A stretch of DNA of 64,000 nucleotides, from the NCBI GenBank assembly GCA_903904835.1, contig CAIVEI010000019.1:1-64000 (forward strand). The letters are read 5' to 3'. A model generated the notes under the pieces. That model saw only the letters and a list, made by a program, of their open reading frames with translations, was not told the DNA's origin and did not search any database. Both the position numbers and the translations under genes were made by a program. Positions within the stretch are counted from its first letter, which is position 1, and every line of letters begins with the position of its first letter. This DNA comes from an uncultured Schlesneria sp. (GTDB taxonomy: Bacteria > Planctomycetota > Planctomycetia > Planctomycetales > Planctomycetaceae). Below, piece after piece: positions 32,539 to 48,450 of this stretch.

Positions 32539-33387
32539 CTACTTCACTTCCAGCAATTCGACCAGGAAGTGCAAATCTGCTTTCGGCGGAATTCCGGGTC
32601 GACCCCGTTCTCCGTAAGCAAGATCGTAGGGAACGTCCAGTTCAATCATTCCCCCTTCGCCGATCAATTGCATTCCTTCCGTCCATCCCTTGATTACGCC
32701 ACTGAGTGGAAATCCAATCGATTTCCCGCGGCTGTACGAGCTGTCAAAAATCTCGCCATTATCAAACCAGCCTTTGTAATGGACTTCGACCTTGCTGGTC
32801 GCTGTCGGCTTTTTACCATTCGACTTGCGACGTATCCGGTATTTCAGGCCGCTTGGAGTGGTCGTGAATTCCTCGGGGGCGTCTTTGTCGACCGCACCAG
32901 GTTCAATCGGTTTTGGTGCGGGAATGACCTTGAGTAATTCGACAATAAAATGCAGCCTGGCCTTGCCCGGAATGACCGGTGGGTGCCCTTCAACGCCGTA
33001 GCCTAACTCATAGGGAATTTCGAGTTCGATCATTCCCCCTTCGCCAACTAATTGCATTCCTTCTGTCCAGCCAGCGATGACCCCATTAAGTGGAAACTGG
33101 ATGGCTTCGCCGTCTTGTCCGTAGGATTGGTCAAACACTTTTCCACCATCAAGCCAACCTTTGTAGTGGACTTTGACCGTATCCTTGGCGGTCGCTTTGA
33201 CACCTTCGGTTTTACGCAAGACACGGTACTTCAGGCCACTTTTCGTGGTCGTGAATTCTTTTGGTGCATCCTTGTCAGCGGGACCAGGTTCAAGGGCGTT
33301 TCTGTCGGCAGCACTCATGGGCGTTCTTTCTGAGAAGAAGGCGAGCATGCACAGCAGACTCGCAACCAGGATCGATCGGCGATTCAT
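32539..33387 (-). CDS. Two-domain FKBP-type peptidyl-prolyl isomerase, exported
   Basis: A 282-residue protein with a signal peptide (LVASLLCMLAFFSE) and two FKBP domains (about 50-160 and 175-282). Each has the family pattern VHYKGW, FDxSY, FPLxGVIxGWTEGMQL, IPYELGYG/VPYDLAYG and a terminal HF(L/I)VELL. It would catalyse Xaa-Pro isomerisation of exported proteins. Each domain begins with the same EFTTTxSGLKYR linker, also present in the neighbouring FKBP gene, indicating domain duplication. ATG 33387 begins the signal sequence. Confidence 0.94.
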   Translation of the reverse strand: MNRRSILVASLLCMLAFFSERTPMSAADRNALEPGPADKDAPKEFTTTKSGLKYRVLRKTEGVKATAKDTVKVHYKGWLDGGKVFDQSYGQDGEAIQFPLNGVIAGWTEGMQLVGEGGMIELEIPYELGYGVEGHPPVIPGKARLHFIVELLKVIPAPKPIEPGAVDKDAPEEFTTTPSGLKYRIRRKSNGKKPTATSKVEVHYKGWFDNGEIFDSSYSRGKSIGFPLSGVIKGWTEGMQLIGEGGMIELDVPYDLAYGERGRPGIPPKADLHFLVELLEVK

Positions 33388-33429
33388 CGAGACCTCACAA
33401 TAAAGACGGTAATTTTTTGACAAACCAAG

Positions 33430-33927
33430 TTACTTCACGTTCAACAGTTCGACCAGAAAGTGGAGTGTTGCATTTGGCGGAATCGTAGGGGGATACCCAT
33501 CTTTGCCGTAACCGAGTTCCGGCGGAACTTCCAGTTCGATCATGCTCCCTTCGCCGATTAACTGCAGTCCTTCAGCCCAGCCTTTCGCGACACCACTCAA
33601 CGGGAATTCAATGGCAGCGCCGGTCTTTCCGTAGGACGTGTCAAAGATCTTCCCATCGTCGAATGTTCCACGATAGTGAACTCGGACGCGGCCTTCTGCT
33701 GTTGGCTTCTTTCCGTCTGATCGACGAAGAATGCGATATTTCAAACCACTTTCCGTCGTGGTGAATTCCTGGGGAGCATCGGGGTCGGACGGACCGGGTA
33801 CGACTTTGACACGATCTTTATCGATCAATTCCTGTGGTGGAGGTTTTGGAGCGTCATTCAACTTTGTTGTCGAAGAATCACAGCCGATCAGTCCCAACAG
33901 GACTGCGAACAGGAAAAAGCGGTTCAT
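33430..33927 (-). CDS. FKBP-type peptidyl-prolyl isomerase lipoprotein
   Basis: A 165-residue protein with a signal sequence ending VLLGLIGCDS (lipobox Cys), a Pro-rich linker and one FKBP domain: EFTTTESGLKYRILRR, VHYRGTFDDGKIFDTSY, FPLSGVAKGWAEGLQL and VPPELGYG. It is 42 bp upstream of the two-domain FKBP gene and probably cotranscribed. The closeness of all three domains suggests local duplication. The surface-anchored copy likely acts in the periplasm. Confidence 0.93.
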   Translation of the reverse strand: MNRFFLFAVLLGLIGCDSSTTKLNDAPKPPPQELIDKDRVKVVPGPSDPDAPQEFTTTESGLKYRILRRSDGKKPTAEGRVRVHYRGTFDDGKIFDTSYGKTGAAIEFPLSGVAKGWAEGLQLIGEGSMIELEVPPELGYGKDGYPPTIPPNATLHFLVELLNVK

Positions 33928-34101
33928 GTGGAAATCGATTCGAAAAAATGAATTTCGGCCGGTCAAAGCGCGCTGCGTGACCGAAGACAGAGATGCAGTA
34001 GCACCCTGTATGAGAAGATTGGCAATTCACTAGCCGTTCCAACGGTCGGGGCGTATCATCGGCGACAGTTCTCCGATTTTCCACCCTCAAGGGACAAGAT
34101 C

Positions 34102-35627: not shown

Positions 35628-38033
35628 TCATTTCACCAGATAATTCTTGTTGCGCAGCTTAATCAGCAACTGCTCACCGTCACGCTGTTGGCTGAGGATC
35701 TGATTTTCGGTGACAGAATTGGCCTTAACGAGTCCGAAATAGGCTTCGCTATAGCGTTCGATCGTTTCAATCTTGGCTTTATCCTTTTCCAGATCGAGTT
35801 CGGCGGTCTCTGGTGTCACGAGGATTTGCTCTTTCTTTCCTGGTTGGCTTCGTGCATAAACCGCTTGATTGCCATATTGGCGAACGTTGTCGATCGGCAA
35901 ACTGGAATCCGTTTCGATATCGTGAAGCGAATTGGCAGCAGCAGGCTGCGGACTTGTGGCAGAGAGGCTGCTTAGCCTTCTTGCTCCACCCATCATGCCT
36001 CCAAGTCCTCCACCCGTTCTACCGGAATTTGGCTGACCTCCTCCTCCAATACCTGATTGAACCGGCAAAGCGTCTGCAACCGGTCCTGCCGCATTCTCCG
36101 TGTACTGGAATCGCCCCTTTGCCGCACGCTGGGCAACGCCGCTCATGCCTGACGCCTGGTTAAGCTTCAACAGATTGTCGTTTGCTTGACGTAGTCCTTC
36201 CGTATTCGACAACAGCGGCCGCATGGTTTCGTCAGCAAGGAACGATGTATAGGGGGTCAGGATTCCGTGGTTTGTCGACAGATCGACCAGTTCTTTAACA
36301 AGTTCGTCGTTTTTGCCAACGAGGTCGATCTGATCAATGATTTCGCCAATACGGCGGTAGGCCCACAGCTTTTCGACAAAGGCATAGCTCTCGTCGCCGC
36401 TCTTTTCGATCAGGTTCGCCGGGAAGTCGAATTTCTGCTCCTGATCGCCGATGCGACCTTTGATAACGACTTTTGCTGGACCAGGCTTCTTGTACCGACC
36501 GACAACGACAAGCTGTTGTCCTTCAAACAAATCGAAGTTCACCTTGGGATAGACTCGATTGACCGGCAAGCCCTCCTCGACTTTGATCCCCTCTAGTTCG
36601 ATGTTGATTGCGACATCAGTCAATACCGGAGAACTGATGTTGTTGTAGACTGCGCTGACATGAGCTTCAATATCTTCATCCGGTCTGACATACTCCGAAA
36701 GACCATTCCCGTCACGCGATACTCTGTCGAGAAGTCGCGAATTTACGTCGTATCCGACCCCAAACGAAAGGATACGTGCGTGAACCTTGTTTGCCTCTTT
36801 TGCAGCCTGACAGATTTGTCCTTCGTTCGTCACGCCGATCGTCGGTAGGCCGTCCGTCAGGAACATTACGTAGTTCGGGCGGGTGTTGTCTTTCCGTTGC
36901 CCCAAAGCAGCGGTCAGCGATCCATGAATATTTGTCCCACCGCCGGGATAAATCCCTTCGACAAACCCGATGGCAGCTTTGCGTGTTTCGTCGTTGTACC
37001 TTTCAAGCTCTGGCCGAAACGACTCGACGTTGCCGTCATAAGCGACAACATTGAACAGATCCCCCTCGCGCAAATTATTAAGAACAAATTTCAGGGCTGC
37101 GCGAGCCTGTTCGAACTTCTTGCCGCTCATGCTTCCTGATCGATCGACAACAAAAATCACGGTCTTCTTCGGGCGTTCGACATCCACGGGTTTCACTTGA
37201 GGACTTGCCAATAAGAGAAAGAAACCGTCTTCACTTGCCGAGGGACGGTAACTGATGACACTCGCCCCAACCTGTCCTTTATCGACGTCGAACAGCAGTC
37301 GGAAATCGGTCGTGGGAACTTCGTTGACGCGTGAATAGGTGACGACCGCGTGTTTGGCGTCGGGTCGCTTGATGTCCACCGTATGGGTCGGTGAGTAGAC
37401 ATTCTTAATGTCGATTGCCGATTCGATTGCAATCTGAAATTCGATCTTCTCGACCGCGTGCGAGGTATACTTGGCTGTACTGAGAGGAAATAGAAAATCC
37501 GTCAGTCCACGGCCTTTTCGAAGCAATTGATTGTAGTGCAGTGTCACCTGACGCTCGGCCCCCGGCGGTACGGGAAAAACGCTCGTCTGAAACAGGCCCA
37601 TCCCCATCCATTCCAGCAGCGCCGGATCTTTATTCGATCGGACAATCGCCTCGTAGACTGACCGAGCCTCTGTCGCGGGCATCAATTTTCCGGGAAACTC
37701 TTTTCCATCGACAAGCAACGTCAATTTATCGATTGCTCCGTCATAGGGTAGTGGGAACAGGAATTGAACTTCGATCGGAGCACTTCCGGTGTTCACGAAT
37801 GACTGAGACACCTGTACCCGAGCGACTTGATCGACGATGCGCGCCTGGACGCTCAGTTCTTTGATCTTGTAGGAAGAATTTGGCAAAAGGGTTGTCGGGG
37901 CAACATGCGAATGCCACGTCGGTCTTGGCAAAGGAGAGGGAGGGCTGGTGAAGACGAGCACTCCTTGAGCAAGTGCCAAGGAATTTGTCAGACCGACGAT
38001 AAGACCCAAAACGAGAGCGAGCGAACGTTTCAT
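35628..38033 (-). CDS. VIT and von Willebrand A domain protein, exported
   Basis: An 801-residue protein with signal peptide (LALVLGLIVGLTNSLALAQ). It has a VIT domain (about 35-170; FVNTGSAPIEVQFLFPLPYD, RSVYEAIVRSNKDPALLEWM) and a vWA domain (about 280-450) with MIDAS residues DRSGSMSG, TNIHGS and FLTDGLPTIG. The C-terminal part is Gly/Ser-rich, then helical (LDLEKDKAKIETIERYSEAY). Such proteins (inter-alpha-trypsin-inhibitor heavy-chain-like) are common in planctomycetes, probably for protein or matrix binding. ATG 38033 begins the signal. It stands alone, with a repeat upstream. Confidence 0.93.
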   Translation of the reverse strand: MKRSLALVLGLIVGLTNSLALAQGVLVFTSPPSPLPRPTWHSHVAPTTLLPNSSYKIKELSVQARIVDQVARVQVSQSFVNTGSAPIEVQFLFPLPYDGAIDKLTLLVDGKEFPGKLMPATEARSVYEAIVRSNKDPALLEWMGMGLFQTSVFPVPPGAERQVTLHYNQLLRKGRGLTDFLFPLSTAKYTSHAVEKIEFQIAIESAIDIKNVYSPTHTVDIKRPDAKHAVVTYSRVNEVPTTDFRLLFDVDKGQVGASVISYRPSASEDGFFLLLASPQVKPVDVERPKKTVIFVVDRSGSMSGKKFEQARAALKFVLNNLREGDLFNVVAYDGNVESFRPELERYNDETRKAAIGFVEGIYPGGGTNIHGSLTAALGQRKDNTRPNYVMFLTDGLPTIGVTNEGQICQAAKEANKVHARILSFGVGYDVNSRLLDRVSRDGNGLSEYVRPDEDIEAHVSAVYNNISSPVLTDVAINIELEGIKVEEGLPVNRVYPKVNFDLFEGQQLVVVGRYKKPGPAKVVIKGRIGDQEQKFDFPANLIEKSGDESYAFVEKLWAYRRIGEIIDQIDLVGKNDELVKELVDLSTNHGILTPYTSFLADETMRPLLSNTEGLRQANDNLLKLNQASGMSGVAQRAAKGRFQYTENAAGPVADALPVQSGIGGGGQPNSGRTGGGLGGMMGGARRLSSLSATSPQPAAANSLHDIETDSSLPIDNVRQYGNQAVYARSQPGKKEQILVTPETAELDLEKDKAKIETIERYSEAYFGLVKANSVTENQILSQQRDGEQLLIKLRNKNYLVK

Positions 38034-38440
38034 GGCAGTCCCTTGAAACAGAATGTCAGACAGGTGCGGATCTTGATGATCTGACGCGAAACCCGCAACA
38101 AATCTTGCCGGCAACAATCACACGGACATTCGACGCTTCAAAGTTGAGAAAGTTCCCGGTTCTCACCTAAAAAGAATTTTCAAAGTGTTTTTGGAACATA
38201 TAGCCTCGAAAAGCGTGGCACGGTTTTACCGTGTTCAGTTAAGCCGTGCTCTTCGGACAGGTTATCGAACCATGAAGACATGGCCTTATCGAGGACTCCA
38301 AAACCGTGACACCCCTGGGTTTCCACCGCTAGACCACTCATAAGGCGCTACAGTAATTACCCGACACCAGTTTGGCCGTTTTGCATGAGCGCAGCTTGAC
38401 AGATCCTTAGTTTCGTCAATGACCACTTTTGCCAACAAGC
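38034..38440. other. Intergenic stretch with a CACGG-type palindromic repeat
   Basis: About 400 bp. It carries a repeat at 38215-38312 (separate entry). No gene is supported. Confidence 0.5.
38215..38312. repeat. CACGG-type palindromic element, copy 1
   Basis: GTGGCACGGTTTT (38215-38227) matches the complement of 38300-38312 at 12 of 13 positions. An inner GCACGG/CCGTGC pair is also present. Related sequences are at 44150-44244 and 60026-60070. The size and end structure are those of a short non-coding mobile or REP-like element. Confidence 0.75.
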
Positions 38441-41400
38441 TTACTCAAGACGATAAAGTGTTCCGTCGGATGCCACGGCAAATAGTGTCTCCTGTATCTG
38501 CGTCAGTCCGATCGACAATGTCTGCGGCACTATGATCCGACGGACCTCAGCTCCCGATTCACGATTCAATACGATGACGGTTCCATTTTGACATGCAAAC
38601 CAGACTTGATCGTCCTTGAGAATCGCAGGCCCCATGGGATCGAGGTTTAACAAGTCGAACGACCATTGTTCCATCAACGTCTTTCCTTCAGAGAGACAAT
38701 GCAGCTTCCGATCGCCAGCCTGGACTAGCAGATTGGCTCCAAGAGGCCAGATGTTCTTGATGGGTGCCGTCAAACTCGACTGGCCGTCCGTGTCAAACGA
38801 GCGAACATTCAATTGGCGGATCACACCACTCGCATCGGCGACGAAAAGAAATTCGTCCTGCAGAAACGGTTTGACATCGACTGGCTGGCCGAGCTGCAAC
38901 TCAGCCACTTCCGCAAGATGCGGGACATCACCTGAACGATACTGGATACGTGACAGTCGGCCACTTCCATCACAGGCAATCAATTCCCTTCCATCAATAC
39001 GGATCAGATGCGCCCAGCGATGTTCCTGCTTTTCTCCCACGGGAAGCATCATATCCTGGACTGGCTTTCTTCCTGCCGCGAGCGGCACCATTTTCAAACG
39101 AGATGGCAAAGGAAATACCAAGCCTTCGTCCAACAAGACAGGATCTGCTTCGGGAACTTCATTCAATTTGTATTTGTCGACCAGTTGCCCTGCATGATTG
39201 ATCATGTAGGCAGTGATGGTCTCGCCGGCAGCAACCACGACGATTCGTTGATCGGGTAGGGCTGTTGCACGAATGCGACTTGTGACGTTTGTCGGGAGTT
39301 CCAGGTCCGTACCTGCTTTCAAATCAAAGCCGCCTTGCATGATACGATTCTTGCCTAGCGTGTAGACAGTACCACTTTCGCCAATCCAGATGACACCTCC
39401 ATCCCGCGACGAAATCATTTCCAAAGGAGCATCGCCGACAATTATTCGCCAGGGACTCGTCAACTTTTCCCGTTCGATCGCTGAGAATGTGACCGCGTCG
39501 CTGTAGTTCGATTTGCGACCGACGCAGAACTGTTCTCCCACAAGCTGTAACGGTTGCGAGGCAATGCCGGGTGCGGTTGAAACCGAGTCCATTCGAATGG
39601 TGTTACTGTTGATCTCGAATCGTCGAAAGGCTGAACCTGCTGACCAAAACTGATTGTCAGGTCCTACGGCAACAAATAACGGTCCGGCAATCTTGTCTTG
39701 TTTGGTGGACTGGTTTGCCTTGTATTGTCCGTTGGGGGCAATCCCTTCATGTCCAGCCTCGTCGGTGACAACAAACGCTGCAAATTGTTCTCCTGACGAT
39801 GGGACCACCAGTTGATTTCCGCGAAGTACCGGCGTGTCATGAACCTGTCCGATTCCAACGATTCGGGTGGAAGGCAACTCAATCAATGATTCTGCTGGTT
39901 TTTTCGCATTCCACAATCGCAGCCGGGCACTGTCGGCGAGGTCATTTTCACAAAGCAGCAACAGGTCGCCCATGACTAAGGGGGAAGCAGAAATCGAACC
40001 TGACGCATGGTCCGTAAAGGTGGTTGCCACGGCAGATAAAGCAGGCATTGTTGCTGTCGTTCGTAAAGTGAGAGCGTAAATCATTGCCATCTCGCCGGGG
40101 ACCAGAAGATAGTTTCCGTCACGAGAAAGGACCGGGCTTGTCGCGAGGTTCTGGGAAAACCTTACGACGGCGGACTGTCGTCCCGTATCCAAATCGATCC
40201 GGACCAGCGAGTTTCCTTCGAGTGGAAGATAGATTTGTCCTTCATGTACGAGCGGCTTTCCGATGGCACGCGCATTCAATCGCTGTCGCCAGATCAGTCG
40301 TCCCTTTGATAACTGACATGCCACAAGTGAATTATCTCGCGTGTCAAACATCAGCGATGAAGGTTGTGAGCCAGTTGTTTTGATCGGAAAAAAAGGGGAA
40401 CGAGTGCCGATCACGCGTTTCCAGACAAGCTCACCTGTGGCCGGGTCAACGGCATAACACGAATCTTTCGCCGTCACGAAAACGACCTGCCCCTGCGAGT
40501 TATCTTCGGTTCGCGACCGCGAATACATGATTCCGAGAATCGGTTCGCTCGACCGGGGAGTCTCGTCGTTCACTTCTGCCGGACGTTCGGTCTCGTCGGT
40601 CGCCACCACGGATCGCTCCAGATCGAGCGATTTCTGCAAGGCCTCTTTGACTCGTTTGGAAGTAATGAATTCGGGAAAACTTTTCACCAGTCGTTCACGC
40701 TCAGATAGCGCGTCCATCGGCTTCTTCTCGGAAATGGCCGAGTCGACAGTCCTCATGGCGAGGTCGAACGTTTTCTGTTTTTCGATGGCATTTGTTGCCT
40801 TCCGACGCTGCTCGCTGATCCGTCCAATTGTCCCGGCAGGAGGCGCCGAAGGGTCGGAATACCGTTCCAGCAAATCTTGAGCATCCTTTGAAACAACAAG
40901 CAGATCTGCATCACGGTTCGTTTCCGCAGACTTGGCCGCACCCATCGAAATCTGTTCAGCATATTGAAACAAGGTTGAGTGTAAGCTCGAAAAATCAGAC
41001 TCGTTTCGATGAGCTTTAATCAGTTCATTCAACCGTTCCAACCCGCGTTTCCAGGTGGGCGAGGCACCCGAAATCTCCTTCTGGATATGAGCCTTCGCCA
41101 GTCCGCGATCCGCCTGCCGACGCAACCCATGGTTGGGATATTGGGCAATGAAACGTTCGAACGTGGTGATCGACTGCGTGAACTGGCCGTCGTTCATTTC
41201 AGCAACCGCGCGGTCATATAACCGATTCGATGTCTCACGAGAAATCAGAAACCAGAAGATTCCTGTGACGAGCAAAAGGACCAGTCCGCCACCAGTCAGC
41301 CCGAGGACGAGCGGAGATTTCAAAATCTCTTGTTCGCCGGGCCTGACAGGTCGCCCGATGATGCCGCCATCGATAGGCTTTTGTTTCGGAGCTTTTCCAG

Positions 41401-41881
41401 GAAGCGGAGCAGCATCGGCAAAGAAGTCTTCGTCTGCGGCCTGCAACGCTTCTAATTCGGCCTGCGACTCGGTAAGGACCTTCCCTTCGTACCATGGGAG
41501 ATCTTTAATTGATTTCGCGACAGATTCCGCTTTGCCCCCCGACTTGCGAGAACTTTGTGATTCATGAGATACATCCCTCGCGCTGGGCTGGTCTTCCTCA
41601 AAGATTAAATCGACGCTGCCGACTCGAATCGTATCGCCGGAATTCAGCATCATGTGAGCGACAGAACCGGAATTGACTTCAACACCAGCGGAAGTGGCAG
41701 CCGTGACTTCGAAGCCCGTTTTGTTCCAACTGACACGACAGTGCATCGGAGCAACATCCTGTTCCGAAATACAAATGTCGTTGAATGACTGGCGTCCAAT
41801 TGTCAGGGGCTGCGATCGAGACAATTCTCGCTGTTCAGTGGTTCCGTCCAACCGTCGAAGTATGAGAAAAGCTTTCGTCAT
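38441..41881 (-). CDS. FHA domain - transmembrane - PQQ beta-propeller protein
   Basis: A 1146-residue protein. An FHA-like domain at about 1-98 (LTIGRQSFNDICISEQDVAP, then MHCRVSW) would bind phospho-Thr peptides; the usual Ser before the conserved His is replaced, so binding is uncertain. After a polar linker comes one membrane span (about 191-213), a helical TPR-like stretch (about 215-330) and a large PQQ/WD-type beta-propeller (about 450 to the end) with repeats such as DPATGELVWKRVIG, LVRIDLDTGRQSAVV and VIVLNRESGAEVRRI. I infer cytoplasmic FHA and periplasmic propeller. It follows the zinc-ribbon ExbD gene by one base, so it is probably a partner of the ExbB/ExbD motor. Confidence 0.88.
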   Translation of the reverse strand: MTKAFLILRRLDGTTEQRELSRSQPLTIGRQSFNDICISEQDVAPMHCRVSWNKTGFEVTAATSAGVEVNSGSVAHMMLNSGDTIRVGSVDLIFEEDQPSARDVSHESQSSRKSGGKAESVAKSIKDLPWYEGKVLTESQAELEALQAADEDFFADAAPLPGKAPKQKPIDGGIIGRPVRPGEQEILKSPLVLGLTGGGLVLLLVTGIFWFLISRETSNRLYDRAVAEMNDGQFTQSITTFERFIAQYPNHGLRRQADRGLAKAHIQKEISGASPTWKRGLERLNELIKAHRNESDFSSLHSTLFQYAEQISMGAAKSAETNRDADLLVVSKDAQDLLERYSDPSAPPAGTIGRISEQRRKATNAIEKQKTFDLAMRTVDSAISEKKPMDALSERERLVKSFPEFITSKRVKEALQKSLDLERSVVATDETERPAEVNDETPRSSEPILGIMYSRSRTEDNSQGQVVFVTAKDSCYAVDPATGELVWKRVIGTRSPFFPIKTTGSQPSSLMFDTRDNSLVACQLSKGRLIWRQRLNARAIGKPLVHEGQIYLPLEGNSLVRIDLDTGRQSAVVRFSQNLATSPVLSRDGNYLLVPGEMAMIYALTLRTTATMPALSAVATTFTDHASGSISASPLVMGDLLLLCENDLADSARLRLWNAKKPAESLIELPSTRIVGIGQVHDTPVLRGNQLVVPSSGEQFAAFVVTDEAGHEGIAPNGQYKANQSTKQDKIAGPLFVAVGPDNQFWSAGSAFRRFEINSNTIRMDSVSTAPGIASQPLQLVGEQFCVGRKSNYSDAVTFSAIEREKLTSPWRIIVGDAPLEMISSRDGGVIWIGESGTVYTLGKNRIMQGGFDLKAGTDLELPTNVTSRIRATALPDQRIVVVAAGETITAYMINHAGQLVDKYKLNEVPEADPVLLDEGLVFPLPSRLKMVPLAAGRKPVQDMMLPVGEKQEHRWAHLIRIDGRELIACDGSGRLSRIQYRSGDVPHLAEVAELQLGQPVDVKPFLQDEFLFVADASGVIRQLNVRSFDTDGQSSLTAPIKNIWPLGANLLVQAGDRKLHCLSEGKTLMEQWSFDLLNLDPMGPAILKDDQVWFACQNGTVIVLNRESGAEVRRIIVPQTLSIGLTQIQETLFAVASDGTLYRLE

Positions 41882-41882
41882 T

Positions 41883-42695
41883 TCAGTCCATCTTCTTCTT
41901 CGAAGTCATACGGATCTTCTGCATCCCGACCTCATTCGCTGCGTCGATGACCGCGATGATTGTCCGATGGAGAGATTGGTTATCGGCGGTGACCAGCAAT
42001 TCAGTTTTCTGTTCACGCCGCATCTTGTCTCGCAGGGTGTCGGCTAATCGATTCACGTCCCCTAGCGGTTCATCATCGATCCATATTGTATTACTGGCGT
42101 CGACTTTCACGATTATCGAAGTACCATGCAGGTCATCAAGCGTCTGAACCTGCTGGCTGGCCCCCTTCTGGTCGGGATCAGGAGTCGGCACCTCAATGCT
42201 TTTTTGCAGACTGAACGATGCCGAAACCATAAAAAAAATCAGCAGTTGAAAGGTCACATCGACCATTGGCGTCAGATCCATTTCATCATCCAGGTGATTA
42301 TGTCTTCGTATCGTTAACGGAGCGCCGTCATCATCATCGTCGTCAGTGGTATCGCCCGGAATGAAAGGTTCCTCGACCGATTCGACATTGAGTTCGTCGA
42401 CTTCCAATTCAGACAGCGATTCTGACGGGGCGATTTTTTTCCTAACCGTTTGATCTGGAGAAATTTGCTCTTCCAAGGGAGGCACGGCGATCTCCGACTC
42501 CTTTTGGAGTTCCAGCTTGGACGGATCGAATTCATTCTGCATCTGGGGAGGTGGTACGGTCTCCAACGAGTACGTATCTTCCATCGGGACAATCGTTTTC
42601 TCGCCGCACGTCGGGCATTCAACGACCGCACCTGCTTGACGGCTCGAAATGGCCATCAGGCCTCGGCAATTCGTACAGCGAAAGCGGATGGGCAT
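41883..42695 (-). CDS. ExbD-family protein with N-terminal zinc ribbon
   Basis: A 270-residue protein. The N-terminus has a zinc-ribbon-like element, RCTNCRGLMAISSRQAG then VECPTCGEKT, with two CxxC pairs. After an acidic linker rich in Asp, Glu and Pro comes the ExbD/TolR part with DEMDLTPMVDVTFQLLIFFM: the Asp at the start of the single membrane span is the proton-carrying residue of the family. A periplasmic domain follows (VKVDASNTIWIDDEPLGDVN). ATG 42695 begins PIRFRCTNC; the frame remains open to 42773. Zinc ribbon placed ahead of ExbD would face the cytoplasm. Likely uses proton flow with the ExbB at 43349-44005. Confidence 0.9.
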   Translation of the reverse strand: MPIRFRCTNCRGLMAISSRQAGAVVECPTCGEKTIVPMEDTYSLETVPPPQMQNEFDPSKLELQKESEIAVPPLEEQISPDQTVRKKIAPSESLSELEVDELNVESVEEPFIPGDTTDDDDDDGAPLTIRRHNHLDDEMDLTPMVDVTFQLLIFFMVSASFSLQKSIEVPTPDPDQKGASQQVQTLDDLHGTSIIVKVDASNTIWIDDEPLGDVNRLADTLRDKMRREQKTELLVTADNQSLHRTIIAVIDAANEVGMQKIRMTSKKKMD

Positions 42696-42811
42696 CTTGG
42701 TAACCGACGACTTAATCAGAAAATTCGATGGATGATTTGAATTAGTGGAAAGACCGAGCACGTCTTTTTCCACATGACAAAATATTTCCGGGATGACTTT
42801 ATCGTTATTGT

Positions 42812-43273
42812 TTAGTCCTTGGGTTTATCTCCCACGCCCATATACAACTCAACTCCTTCGACAGACTTGATTGCCTGGGCAACGTCGTCGACGAGTCCGT
42901 GTGTGACGTCTCCCTCTGCTTTAAGCACGATGCGTTTTTTGCCATCTCGTACCGACTCTTCAACGTAGCGTCGAACTTCGCTCAGGTCAGCCTCCGGACC
43001 TTCACCATCCCCAAGCACGATCCGAGGCGGCTCTGCGGAACTTAATGGAGCGAGAATCGTCACGATCGCCGCTCCCGCAGAATCGACACCAATACTATGT
43101 TCAGCAGGGGGAACATCAACGTCAGGCGTTCCTTGCATCGTCGAGGCGACCATGAAAAAAATCAGTAACAAAAAAGTGACGTCGATCATTGGGGTGATGT
43201 CCATCTCACCATCGACCAGTTTGCGGCCACCCCCAAACGATCCCGCATCAGAGAAAAGTCCTCGTCGAGCCAT
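42812..43273 (-). CDS. ExbD-family biopolymer transport protein
   Basis: A 153-residue ExbD/TolR protein. MARRGLFSDAGSFGGGRKL then GEMDITPMIDVTFLLLIFFM gives one membrane span with the essential Asp in MIDV. The C-terminal domain is periplasmic. It begins 76 bp after the ExbB gene ends (in transcription direction) and lies before the zinc-ribbon ExbD. Two ExbD paralogues with one ExbB suggest a mixed motor. Confidence 0.92.
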   Translation of the reverse strand: MARRGLFSDAGSFGGGRKLVDGEMDITPMIDVTFLLLIFFMVASTMQGTPDVDVPPAEHSIGVDSAGAAIVTILAPLSSAEPPRIVLGDGEGPEADLSEVRRYVEESVRDGKKRIVLKAEGDVTHGLVDDVAQAIKSVEGVELYMGVGDKPKD

Positions 43274-43348
43274 CTGCAAAATTCCTGTCCAGTTTTCGAG
43301 ACTTCGCTCGATCAAACCAACGAAATGTCATTCGACATGACGCCTTGC

Positions 43349-44005
43349 TTATTTTCGTTTTGCGATTGCTCGTTCAAGTTGATCGAGAAATTTTCCTATC
43401 TGATGCTGAACACTATCTGTCAACCGGCCAATTCGAACCTGCATCGACGCCATACACATGACGAGAGGAATCGCGATCATCAAGCCGACGGCTGTCGTGA
43501 TCAATGCAAAACTGATGTCGTTCGCCAGCGATGCGGGATTCACTCCCGCAGTCTGCTTTGCCGCGATCTTGCCGAACGCTGCGATCATCCCGAGCACCGT
43601 CCCCTGAAGGCCAAGCATGGGCGCAGTTTTTACGACAGTATTCACCCAGGACATCTGGTAGTCCATTTCAGCCAATACTTCACGCTCAAAAGTTTCGCTC
43701 AAAAGTTGGCGTAACTTGTTGATTGGCCAATGACGATTGGCCATTGCAATCAAGATCAGTTGCGGAACAGCTTTCGACCAGTAAGGCGGAGAATCGCACA
43801 ATGCGATGACATCGTCGAACTGTCGGGCCTGCAAACGCTCACTGACCTGATTCAGAAAATCATCGGCAGCAGCCTGCGATCGAAACTGTTTTTGACCAAT
43901 TCGTCGAAAGATCAGCACAACCAGAAACATCCCGTACACGGCGGCAATGCCTTGCATCGGGTAAATCAGGTTGCTCATCAAATCGACAAGCGCCGTCATA
44001 TCCAT
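43349..44005 (-). CDS. MotA/TolQ/ExbB proton channel family protein
   Basis: A 218-residue protein with three membrane segments: about residues 12-32 (IAAVYGMFLVVLIF), 107-128 (NTVVKTAPMLGLQGTVLGMI) and 145-170 (ISFALITTAVGLMIAIPLVM). APMLGLQGTVLGMI and the Thr/Ala-rich third span are family signatures. It should form the pentameric proton channel with the two ExbD proteins next to it. It is first in this gene set. Confidence 0.93.
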   Translation of the reverse strand: MDMTALVDLMSNLIYPMQGIAAVYGMFLVVLIFRRIGQKQFRSQAAADDFLNQVSERLQARQFDDVIALCDSPPYWSKAVPQLILIAMANRHWPINKLRQLLSETFEREVLAEMDYQMSWVNTVVKTAPMLGLQGTVLGMIAAFGKIAAKQTAGVNPASLANDISFALITTAVGLMIAIPLVMCMASMQVRIGRLTDSVQHQIGKFLDQLERAIAKRK

Positions 44006-46847: not shown

Positions 46848-47789
46848 TCAAATTGATGCTGGATAATCAAGAAGTCCTGAGAGAGCGGTTTCCAATAAAT
46901 CCATGCGTTTTAAATCTGACCGCAGGATTGCTGGGATTTTGGATTCACCCCAATAGGCGCCTGCCAACTGACCACAGATGGCTCCTGTTGTATCCGCATC
47001 GTCTCCAAGATTAACCGCTTTCAAAACTGCATCGGAAAACGATTCGGCGTTATGAAAAGCCCACAACGATGCCTCAAGGCTTTTGACCACCCAGCCCGAA
47101 CCCGTAATCTCGGGAGGTTGCTTTTCTCGAAAGCTTCCCCGTGCGATTTCCTGGATTAACGGGTGCAGCGGCTTGATCTGGTTGAGTTGCTGCAAGGGCT
47201 TCCAGTCCGGTGAGAGGACAGCGTGGCGGTCTTCTCCGCGAATCAGTGCAGCAAGCAAAATCGACAGGTATCGGCACGCGGAAAGGCATTGCTCGCTGGC
47301 ATGAGTCGCGACACTGGATTCTTCAGCCCCGCGCGAAATTGCGTCGATCTGATCGGGGTACTTGTCGGCGAAGTGGATCGGTACCGGTGCCAAACGCATG
47401 ATCGAACCATTACCGCTTGCTCTTTCTGACGGATCACCGGATCGAAGAGCGTCTTGTATCTTGATGTAGTTGGCGAGTGCAATTCGGGTCGTGATCCCGA
47501 TATCAAAGCATCGACCATTCACCGAATACTTGCCCGTTTTCCACCATTCCACGTAACGATCCGCTTGATCATTCAGGTTCCAGCCAACCTTGGAAATGCT
47601 ATCAGCCAACGCCAGTGCCATGCTCGTATCATCCGTCCATTCCCCAGCGTTTAACCCGTAGGGGCCACCACTTCGATAGCCGGTCACCTCAGCAAAGCTA
47701 CCGGGAGGACTAAATTCGACGGCAGCACCCAGTGCGTCGCCGATGGCCAGGCCAATCAGGGTTCCCCGGCAACGGTCGCGATCACGCAT
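46848..47789 (-). CDS. ADP-ribosylglycohydrolase family protein
   Basis: A 313-residue protein of the DraG/ARH family, which removes ADP-ribose from proteins or related groups using Mg2+. The core motifs are GTLIGLAIGDALGAAVEF near the start, EWTDDTSMALALADS (metal Thr-Asp-Asp) and NLGDDADTTGAICGQLAGAY near the C-terminus (metal Asp-x-Asp-Thr). ATG 47789 is used because upstream frame lacks family sequence. The start overlaps the preceding gene by 8 bases, so translational coupling is likely. The partner transferase is not seen in the window. Confidence 0.93.
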   Translation of the reverse strand: MRDRDRCRGTLIGLAIGDALGAAVEFSPPGSFAEVTGYRSGGPYGLNAGEWTDDTSMALALADSISKVGWNLNDQADRYVEWWKTGKYSVNGRCFDIGITTRIALANYIKIQDALRSGDPSERASGNGSIMRLAPVPIHFADKYPDQIDAISRGAEESSVATHASEQCLSACRYLSILLAALIRGEDRHAVLSPDWKPLQQLNQIKPLHPLIQEIARGSFREKQPPEITGSGWVVKSLEASLWAFHNAESFSDAVLKAVNLGDDADTTGAICGQLAGAYWGESKIPAILRSDLKRMDLLETALSGLLDYPASI

Positions 47790-48450
47790 GATTCTTCTTT
47801 CGTCGTTTGCTTTCGTAGATGTTGCAGACTTCGATCCTGTCATCGATCGCAACGGGAACCAGAGTCCGCACGTAATATGGCCCTTCAAAATCGTCGAGTC
47901 GATCAAAATGCTCGCTTAATCGCGGGGCAGAAAAGACCATCACCGAAACCGAAGGCGCGGATGAGTCCCATGTGAATTCTAAATATTCTCCCGGATGCTC
48001 CACGATGCCGTGAACCGTCCCCTCAAGCCAGTGTCCATTGATGCCCGTCATTTGGGCAGCATTCGAACCACCCGGCTTCAAACTTCCGTAAACGGCAAGT
48101 CGCTGCGATGGCTGATCGAAAACGGTATCGAAAAACATTTCGGGGTCCGTCGATGCGATCGCTATTTCAAGCACAGCAAGACGTGACACTTTTTCGATGC
48201 GAGATTCTTCATGTCCCGCGGTTGGTTGCGGACGTTGATCCAAGAAGTTTCGAATTTTTGTCATCGCGTTGCCAAGGTCATCAAGACGATCTGCATGACT
48301 TTTTCGCTGCCGCGACGAGTTGATACAAACAAGAACTTGTTCTAATGCCGATGGTGGCAATTCTCGCCACCATCCCGAATCGACGGAGTCACCATTTAAG
48401 CGAGTTGTTCTGACTTCTGAAGCGGGTTGGCTTTTGCTTGGATCTGTCAT
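47782..48450 (-). CDS. Gamma-glutamylcyclotransferase-like (AIG2/GGCT-fold) protein
   Basis: A 222-residue protein. The C-terminal half has LAVYGSLKPGGSNAAQM, the YGSL nucleotide/substrate-loop motif of GGCT-like folds, then EGTVHGIVEHPGEYLEF and FDRLDDFEGPYYVRTLVPV, typical of the family end. The N-terminal 90 residues are an unusual helical extension with no recognised domain. It might form or cleave gamma-glutamyl bonds, but the family is functionally broad. It overlaps the esterase stop by 4 bases and the ADP-ribosylglycohydrolase by 8. Confidence 0.83.
   Translation of the reverse strand: MTDPSKSQPASEVRTTRLNGDSVDSGWWRELPPSALEQVLVCINSSRQRKSHADRLDDLGNAMTKIRNFLDQRPQPTAGHEESRIEKVSRLAVLEIAIASTDPEMFFDTVFDQPSQRLAVYGSLKPGGSNAAQMTGINGHWLEGTVHGIVEHPGEYLEFTWDSSAPSVSVMVFSAPRLSEHFDRLDDFEGPYYVRTLVPVAIDDRIEVCNIYESKRRKKNHA

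Follow-up and report, generated by a model that had tools for sequence, protein, structure and literature searches.

A conserved ExbB/ExbD motor and FHA-propeller arm of the class Planctomycetia as candidate parts of an eight-protein trans-envelope machine

Here, we describe four adjacent minus-strand genes of a 64,000-nucleotide stretch of DNA from an uncultured Schlesneria sp. (contig CAIVEI010000019.1); this whole stretch is called the window below. They code for an ExbB/TolQ/MotA-type proton channel of 218 aa (43349..44005; PF01618, 7.6e-23), a first ExbD/TolR-type subunit (42812..43273; PF02472, 6.2e-15), a second one, ExbD2, composed of a cytoplasmic zinc ribbon, an acidic linker and an ExbD part (41883..42695; PF02472, 2.5e-22), and a protein of 1146 aa, the arm, with the layout FHA - transmembrane (TM) segment - helical/TPR domain - beta-propellers (38441..41881). 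The gaps measure 75, 116 and 1 bp, and the row stands as it was read in the first-pass annotation of this DNA. The starts are our choice, namely ATG at 44005 for ExbB, 43273 for ExbD, 42695 for the zinc-ribbon ExbD and 41881 for the arm, with TTG at 43315 as an alternative for ExbD. A scan for promoters and terminators returned 7 and 6, with shuffle means of 4.6 and 6.9, and was kept out of the argument.

The ExbB domain and both ExbD-type domains lie above the Pfam cut-off. The zinc ribbon (CxxC...CxxC with Cys 7, 10, 27 and 30 of ExbD2; 42606..42677, minus strand) matches no Pfam family above cut-off and was recognized from alignments and PDB profile matches: the ExbD2 profile hits several zinc ribbons, among them the LysW-type ribbon 5k2m (E 0.0024), and also 7zok, 'Adventurous gliding motility protein X' (E 0.0078). 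A defence motor such as Zorya was rejected, as no PADLOC model was matched at E up to 0.01 by any of the four proteins or by the single D1 and single U1 (see below) searched along with them.

In the arm, an FHA domain (41618..41803; PF00498, 1.4e-8) is followed by the TM segment (41240..41311), a helical/TPR domain that is predicted to be periplasmic (40607..41182; TPR_6, 9.5e-4, below its cut-off) and probably two BamB-type beta-propellers (38447..40528; BamB-like PQQ_2, 6.8e-19). This is how the AlphaFold2 model, with a mean pLDDT of 81, arranges the chain: FHA at residues 1-96, disorder at 99-195, a single long helix at 191-230 that contains the TM segment also seen in the family alignment, a helical domain at 234-425 and propeller beta strands at 452-1145. 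Residues 463-806 align structurally with BamB chains (Z 25.2-26.3, rmsd 2.7-2.9). The arm profile matches PDB chains of BamD, YbgF and BamB, and further 7eq5 and 7dxn, solved PQQ-propeller membrane kinases of other organisms. Before the TM segment, the stretch RPGEQ..RSPLVLGL is conserved in the family alignment, and the TM columns of this alignment hold no conserved His. A residue count finds such a His in 0/89 arms, taking as TM the most hydrophobic window, a choice biased against charged residues. The arm would thus not bind its motor in the TonB/TolA way.

Of the 40 family loci (the window and 39 hand-picked loci, mostly the best matches of a homologue search and not a random sample), 34 keep ExbB, ExbD, ExbD2 and arm in this order on one strand, as do 12 of 15 loci from an ExbD2 query and 15 of 35 class-wide loci, likewise chosen by us and not at random; L095 and L096, duplicates of L065 and L072, count twice in the order and partner tallies. 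Among the loci without intact order, L074, L094, L102 and L229 end at a contig edge, and L104 carries an extra ExbD gene in between. The ExbD2 query, of which 24 of 80 loci were examined (15 taken as planctomycete, 9 others), recovers the gene order in named Planctomycetales and Pirellulales records. Since the order is intact in most family loci and is returned by this query as well, the clustering of the four genes is not due to chance, and gene order bears out the earlier idea of a conserved unit. Separate location of the genes in relatives, named beforehand as speaking against the set, is found in part: the arm stands without an adjoining motor in 3/40 family loci and 19/35 class-wide loci (L229, at a contig end, uncounted), and whereas linkage of motor and arm is seen in seven family groups, several lineages have them unlinked. 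For the trios of families f82 and f85, matches to the motor profiles are weak, which makes orthology uncertain. The arm was found at E 1e-30 in 244 of 297 genomes of the class Planctomycetia, with no arm at this threshold in the other 53. Fourteen of 15 deeply scored class genomes have one match each, and in the 15th it is split across two contigs.

The residues of the proton path are kept throughout. Each position of the Thr pair in the ExbB channel is Thr in 81/81 sequences of the alignment, and the proton-carrying Asp is present in 81/81 ExbD and 82/82 ExbD2 proteins, counted without the 9 non-planctomycete loci and without L241. We take these residues to form the proton path by adopting the positions from E. 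coli. As far as sequence can tell, this supports the ion gradient as the energy source, as was proposed for this locus. The zinc ribbon is more variable, with Cys at its four positions in 62, 64, 67 and 62 of 82 ExbD2 proteins. In Rhodopirellula, exbB RB12053 and exbD RB12055 are salt-induced according to PMC2754498; these genes may represent another exbB/exbD locus.

Beyond the four genes, the conserved unit turned out to be larger than annotated at first. In relatives, four further genes, U2, U1, D1 and D2, flank the motor-arm set, and the window's genome has all four of them at two other loci. Where a locus leaves room, they are at the expected place in 67/86 (D1), 44/53 (D2), 60/87 (U1) and 29/80 (U2) cases, counted without L104 and L105, which would raise D1, D2 and U1 by 2 each and U2 by 1. 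U2 and D2 are assigned by neighbourhood, as putative members; the best match of D2 to PDB sequences has E 0.15. U1 is a TonB-shaped protein, a cluster member in relatives and located elsewhere in the window's genome. It has no conserved TM His, and neither sequence nor fold searches gave a convincing PDB match for its C-terminal domain; it was thus not accepted as a TonB/TolA homologue, although it may yet be one. The statement that TonB and TolA are missing holds in so far as neither is encoded by the set and a search of the window's whole genome for TonB_C (PF03544) found nothing (3 of 14 controls are positive), and is to be qualified by this TonB-shaped protein elsewhere. In loci with motor and arm unlinked, U1 is a neighbour of the arm in the f81 loci, L219 (f90) and L230 (f91); it adjoins the motor in L242, L243 and L244 as well as, on the opposite strand, in L234 and L240. 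This ties motor and arm to one system and softens the weight of the unlinked loci.

Across relatives, the cytoplasmic parts are exchanged. ExbD2 carries a zinc ribbon, a kinase or a GYF-like module, while the arm carries an FHA domain, a helical domain, a kinase or a zinc ribbon. Fusion to a Ser/Thr kinase is seen in 5 of 80 scanned ExbD2 proteins (without the 9 non-planctomycete loci, L095 and L096) and in 3 of 86 scanned arms (without L229, L095 and L096). In family f91 the arm reads kinase - TM - propeller and, in locus L215, lies beside an ExbB/ExbD motor. Module labels were given by Pfam and by profiles that derive in part from these very sequences; from the profile labels, the loci that have an arm are used here. 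The assignment as GYF-like is weak, with PF14237 matched below cut-off (0.0084 and 0.03) by two of the four heads of ExbD2 or ExbD examined, and in f82 and f85 it was made by eye. On a FastTree phylogeny without L095, L096, L074, L077 and L229, the arm modules need at least 9 changes and the kinase on ExbD2 at least 2; only these minima are quoted because the deep branches are weak.

In FHA domains, an R/S/N triad of residues reads the phosphothreonine. None of the 30 family arm FHAs has the complete triad and 18 have none of the three residues, whereas among the 24 further FHAs in the window's genome the respective numbers are 14 and 4. As no family arm keeps the contact triad, phosphothreonine reading by the degenerate arm FHA is unsupported, and we gave up the phospho-regulation through this domain that the first-pass annotation had proposed. 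A link to a Ser/Thr kinase does occur elsewhere, as a fusion to ExbD2 in the five relatives mentioned, and the arm is without FHA in all five of these loci. Overall, the conserved unit and the proton path of that annotation remain, and our literature search, in which subscription journals are thinly covered, found no description of the eight-protein system.

We consider it probable that an eight-protein machine of the class Planctomycetia, driven by the proton motive force and spanning the envelope, has its motor and one of its arms encoded by these four genes. At the level of sequence, the gene set, its conservation, the proton-path residues, the swapping of modules and the presence of all eight components in the genome are given; the topology of the components is predicted, and we infer complex formation, stoichiometry, gating and output. 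A ring of five ExbB subunits would enclose ExbD and ExbD2, one copy of each. Protons would pass the ring of ExbB Thr residues and the Asp residues of the ExbDs, such that the ExbD pair moves against the ExbB ring. This movement may be handed to single-TM partners, the arm with its TM, TPR and propellers and the TonB-shaped U1, which together with the periplasmic U2, D1 and D2 would perform work within the periplasm or at the outer membrane. Recruitment or gating of the motor is probably the task of the cytoplasmic modules on ExbD2 and arm (zinc ribbon, GYF-like, Ser/Thr kinase, degenerate FHA, helical domain). In the Myxococcus Agl-Glt motor, FHA and zinc-ribbon/GYF modules are regarded as playing this part, with gating by GltJ, whose ribbon and GYF domains bind regulators.

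Two known systems do not account for the set. An ordinary TonB system has ExbB and ExbD as well, including the residues of the proton path, whereas here two ExbDs occur, the TonB-shaped U1 is not detectable as a homologue of TonB, and the absence of PF03544 from the genome rules this system out. In the PVC group, vWA force transducers occur with tolQ and two tolR genes (PMC12204202). Like the set described here, these are planctomycete motors in which a TolQ-like protein and two TolR-like proteins that differ from each other go with a membrane-anchored periplasmic partner. Unlike the arm with its propellers, their partners have a vWA domain and, in the TM, a conserved His; searched against Pfam at E up to 1, the arm gives propeller, FHA and TPR families only, and thus the arm is no vWA transducer.

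That the machine substitutes for Tol-Pal, energising the linkage of outer membrane to cell wall in growth and budding with the arm's propeller and TPR replacing TolB and CpoB, is a tentative reading that we hold to be somewhat unlikely. TolB_N (PF04052) occurs in 0/118 class genomes and in 3 of 14 control genomes, which rules out Tol-Pal itself and speaks for a substitute, as does the missing TonB_C. The motor is of the TolQ/TolR type, the elements TM, TPR and propeller recur in a single chain, the arm, with the YbgF, BamD and BamB matches named above, and the arm is widespread in the class. However, the propeller is of BamB and not of TolB type. In the essential-gene paper on P. limnophila (PMC10632474), the main text contains none of the terms biopolymer, TolQ, MotA, PQQ, FHA and Tol-Pal; a term search of PMC12283558 found nothing.

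It is doubtful that the device serves transmembrane signalling, with a propeller/TPR arm sensing the state of the envelope and the ExbB/ExbD channel and proton motive force coupling it to cytoplasmic Ser/Thr kinase signalling. The kinases fused to ExbD2 and arm and the FHA-less arms in all five kinase-ExbD2 loci fit this reading, and the f91 arm resembles the solved PQQ-propeller membrane kinases, from which it differs by being encoded beside a motor in L215. Yet most arms, and the majority of members, are kinase-free, the arm FHA is degenerate, and D1, D2, U1 and U2 suggest a device larger than a receptor.

A motor for surface motility or adhesion of the Agl-Glt type appears quite improbable in spite of its likeness. 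AglRQS-Glt of Myxococcus xanthus also combines one MotA/TolQ/ExbB protein, two ExbD/TolR proteins and a single-TM FHA partner, GltG, which binds AglR by two-hybrid (PMC3169522). Both machines include a zinc ribbon, located there in AgmX/GltJ and here in ExbD2 itself; the match to AgmX is weak and the ribbon a generic fold. GltG ends in TonB_C, which the arm lacks, ending in TPR and propellers instead. Finally, an ordinary ExbBD set next to an unrelated FHA/propeller protein is very hard to believe: the unlinked lineages and the generic, arm-less ExbB/ExbD pairs in 9/9 non-planctomycete loci checked from the ExbD2 query stand against linkage in seven family groups, U1 as a bridge between motor and arm, and module types common to ExbD2 and arm.

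Returning to the eight-protein machine, its boldest version is speculative and in our view unlikely: a near-universal, apparently single-copy and undescribed machine that takes over the role of Tol-Pal in bacteria dividing without FtsZ, with exchanged Ser/Thr kinase, FHA, zinc-ribbon and GYF-like modules letting signalling directly gate a rotary proton motor. Planctomycetes are viewed as diderm bacteria (PMC10632474). With a conserved motor and its parts list, the energising of the outer membrane in a class whose 118 searched genomes gave no TolB-type protein becomes testable. As far as our literature search shows, the fusion of ExbD with a Ser/Thr kinase would give a proton-driven motor a new mode of control.

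The four neighbouring genes on one strand that the first-pass annotation had described could be confirmed, with Pfam supporting ExbB, both ExbD proteins, the FHA domain and the PQQ propeller. All lie on the minus strand of a planctomycete genome of 8.18 Mb in 211 contigs: ExbB (44005-43349), ExbD (43273-42812), an ExbD with a zinc ribbon, here termed ExbD2 (42695-41883), and a protein of 1146 residues combining an FHA domain with a BamB-like PQQ propeller, here termed the arm (41881-38441). They are separated by 75, 116 and 1 bp. The closest named record found with the ExbD2 query, from an uncultured Schlesneria, is 83% identical to ExbD2. Several ExbB/ExbD sets exist in this genome, the present one included; the genome holds nine ExbD matches on six contigs and 25 FHA matches. 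Next downstream of the arm, on the same strand, lies a VIT/vWA-type gene (35628-38117; TIGR03788, 257 bits, below the cut-off) that is outside the four families flanking the set in relatives. Also nearby are an ADP-ribosylarginine hydrolase-like protein (46848-47906; NF041672, 1.9e-78, below the cut-off) and an adjacent gene pair (32539-33966) which by eye has the look of FKBP-type prolyl isomerases, with two domains in one of the proteins.

The proton path was scored at Thr and Asp columns which we take to be the functional positions of E. coli ExbB and ExbD. Both channel positions of ExbB are Thr in 81/81 sequences, and the Asp is kept in 81/81 ExbD and 82/82 ExbD2 proteins.

With the window arm as query, all 61 genomes of its own family gave a match at an E-value of 1e-3, and in 60 of them the best E-value was 2.8e-52 or lower; genome G016 yielded a weak match alone (6.4e-6), which may be another FHA protein. 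An arm profile, with two candidates scored per genome, matched 244 of 297 genomes of the class at 1e-30, and among the 20 listed of the 53 misses most belong to family f82, whose matches are weak. A sample of 246 genomes from the phylum gave matches in 16 members of the class and in a single further genome (propeller part only); class members are absent among the misses listed, beside which there were 209 further misses. Synteny across planctomycetes, which had been proposed as a check, holds in part: by a single explicit rule (four genes in order on the same strand), the order is kept in 34/40 family loci, 12/15 loci from the ExbD2 query and 15/35 class-wide loci, all hand-picked and thus non-random, and in several lineages arm and motor (ExbB, ExbD and ExbD2) lie apart. 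The ExbD2 query makes no assumption about the arm, because its starting point was another gene. With it, the set came up in records of Thermoguttaceae, Pirellulales, Pirellulaceae and Roseiconus, and the arm was absent from all nine non-planctomycete loci examined. The Roseiconus locus carries an additional ExbD-like gene (L104:9507-9968) between ExbD and the zinc-ribbon ExbD2.

When the remaining reading frames near the loci were compared, four further conserved genes emerged, all on the strand of the set: U2 and then U1 before ExbB, and D1 and then D2 after the arm. Among loci with room for them, U2 stands at the expected place in 29/80, U1 in 60/87, D1 in 67/86 and D2 in 44/53; this tally is without L104 and L105, which both have D1, D2 and U1, L104 also U2. 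D1 contains SBP_bac_5 in both proteins scanned, with a weak TPR match in one. U2 matches HEAT and, weakly, toroid families; a U2 profile finds squalene-hopene cyclase chains (2e-11). Neither U1 nor D2 has a Pfam family above the cut-off. By eye, U2, D1 and D2 look secreted. In U1, a single helix close to the N-terminus could be a transmembrane segment, and together with disordered regions and a folded domain at the C-terminus it gives an overall shape like that of TonB; the PDB matches of U1 were unconvincing. All four partners are absent at the locus in the window and in its close relative L092. In the window's own genome, D1 and D2 occur together on contig 50 and U2 and U1 on contig 72, with one U1 match and one place for D1 genome-wide.

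Separate location in relatives, which the first-pass annotation had held to speak against the set, was indeed found: arms without an adjoining Exb gene occur in f81, f82, f83, f85 and f90 loci (in L202 the contig starts just 2 kb ahead of the arm), in L230 of family f91 and in three family loci. ExbD genes are present in 15/15 searched genomes of this kind, and 13 of 16 hand-chosen stretches carry ExbB plus two ExbD-like genes, the f82 and f85 matches being weak. The main argument that motor and arm form one system is that U1 bridges them: it adjoins the arm in all six loci of f81 and also in L219 and L230, and it adjoins the motor in L242, L243 and L244 and, on the opposite strand, in L234 and L240. 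On this argument from gene neighbourhood, motor and arm would belong together.

An AlphaFold2 model of the arm (14 sequences, mean pLDDT 81) displays the FHA domain, a disordered linker, a long helix including the transmembrane segment, a helical domain and propellers. Structure alignment of residues 463-806 with BamB gives Z-scores of 25.2-26.3; designed propellers and NirN score higher, and our claim is therefore restricted to the fold. In FHA domains, Arg, Ser and Asn contact phosphothreonine. We aligned 30 family arms with the 24 further FHA domains of the window's genome as controls; arms of f81 and f83 are outside this count. The triad is complete in 0/30 arms versus 14/24 controls and entirely missing in 18/30 versus 4/24, which argues against the phospho-regulation that had been attributed to this domain. 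As the contacts are incomplete in 30/30 arms and PF16697, the YscD-type FHA of type III secretion, matches the domain as well (6.1e-7, below the cut-off), docking is a more likely function for this fold than phospho-reading. TonB and TolA possess a transmembrane His, whereas the transmembrane segment of the arm has none in the family alignment. His is likewise present in 0/89 arms when the segment is defined by maximum hydrophobicity, a criterion biased against charged residues. The vWA transducers also differ from the arm, having a transmembrane His according to PMC12204202.

The cytoplasmic modules vary between loci. Pfam (E-value 0.01) assigns FHA to 41, a kinase to 3 and a zinc ribbon (Zn_ribbon_4) to 6 of 86 arms; local profiles and motifs place FHA in 43 of 89 arms, a helical domain in 21, a zinc ribbon in 9, a kinase in 3 and a bare tail in 13. 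In ExbD2, the zinc-ribbon Cys positions are kept in 62 to 67 of 82 proteins, a kinase is fused in 5/80, and a GYF-like head occurs in L232, L233, L236, L243 and L244; the heads in f82 and f85 are also GYF-like as judged by eye, a weak assignment. In these two families (L202-L210), the zinc ribbon is on the arm in 9/9 by motif. Two f91 arms are Ser/Thr kinase-transmembrane-propeller proteins (L215:6610-11103, by Pfam, and L230:5614-9348). The kinases fused to ExbD2 show HRDIKPEN and DFG motifs, with the glycine loop of L070 out of frame with the remainder. All five loci concerned (L070, L084, L086, L088 and L105) have an arm without FHA. We regard this pairing as suggestive, since eight other arms also lack FHA and a minimum of two changes on the tree explains the five loci.

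Among studied systems, Myxococcus AglRQS, together with GltG and GltJ/AgmX, comes closest. GltG, an FHA-transmembrane protein, bound AglR in a two-hybrid assay (PMC3169522). Against the PDB, the ExbD2 profile finds several ribbons, among them a LysW-type one (E-value 0.0024) and, after it, the zinc ribbon of GltJ/AgmX (7zok, 0.0078), a weak match because zinc ribbons are generic. The set does not qualify as an Agl-Glt motor itself, as the arm is without TonB_C. By analogy, the set probably works like the AglRQS motor. A description of it was absent from the literature searched, in which subscription journals were poorly covered; of the proposed novel system, the motor is of a known kind, but the arm, its partner proteins and the swapping of modules appear new.

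The division of labour is probably as follows. ExbB and the ExbD-ExbD2 pair would constitute a motor driven by protons, arm and U1 would be its partners with one transmembrane segment each, D1, D2 and U2 would act in the periplasm, and the cytoplasmic heads would be modules for recruiting or gating. TolB_N occurs in 0/118 genomes of the class, and a Tol-like role therefore ranks first among the candidates; the output may be outer-membrane maintenance, transport, adhesion or signalling.
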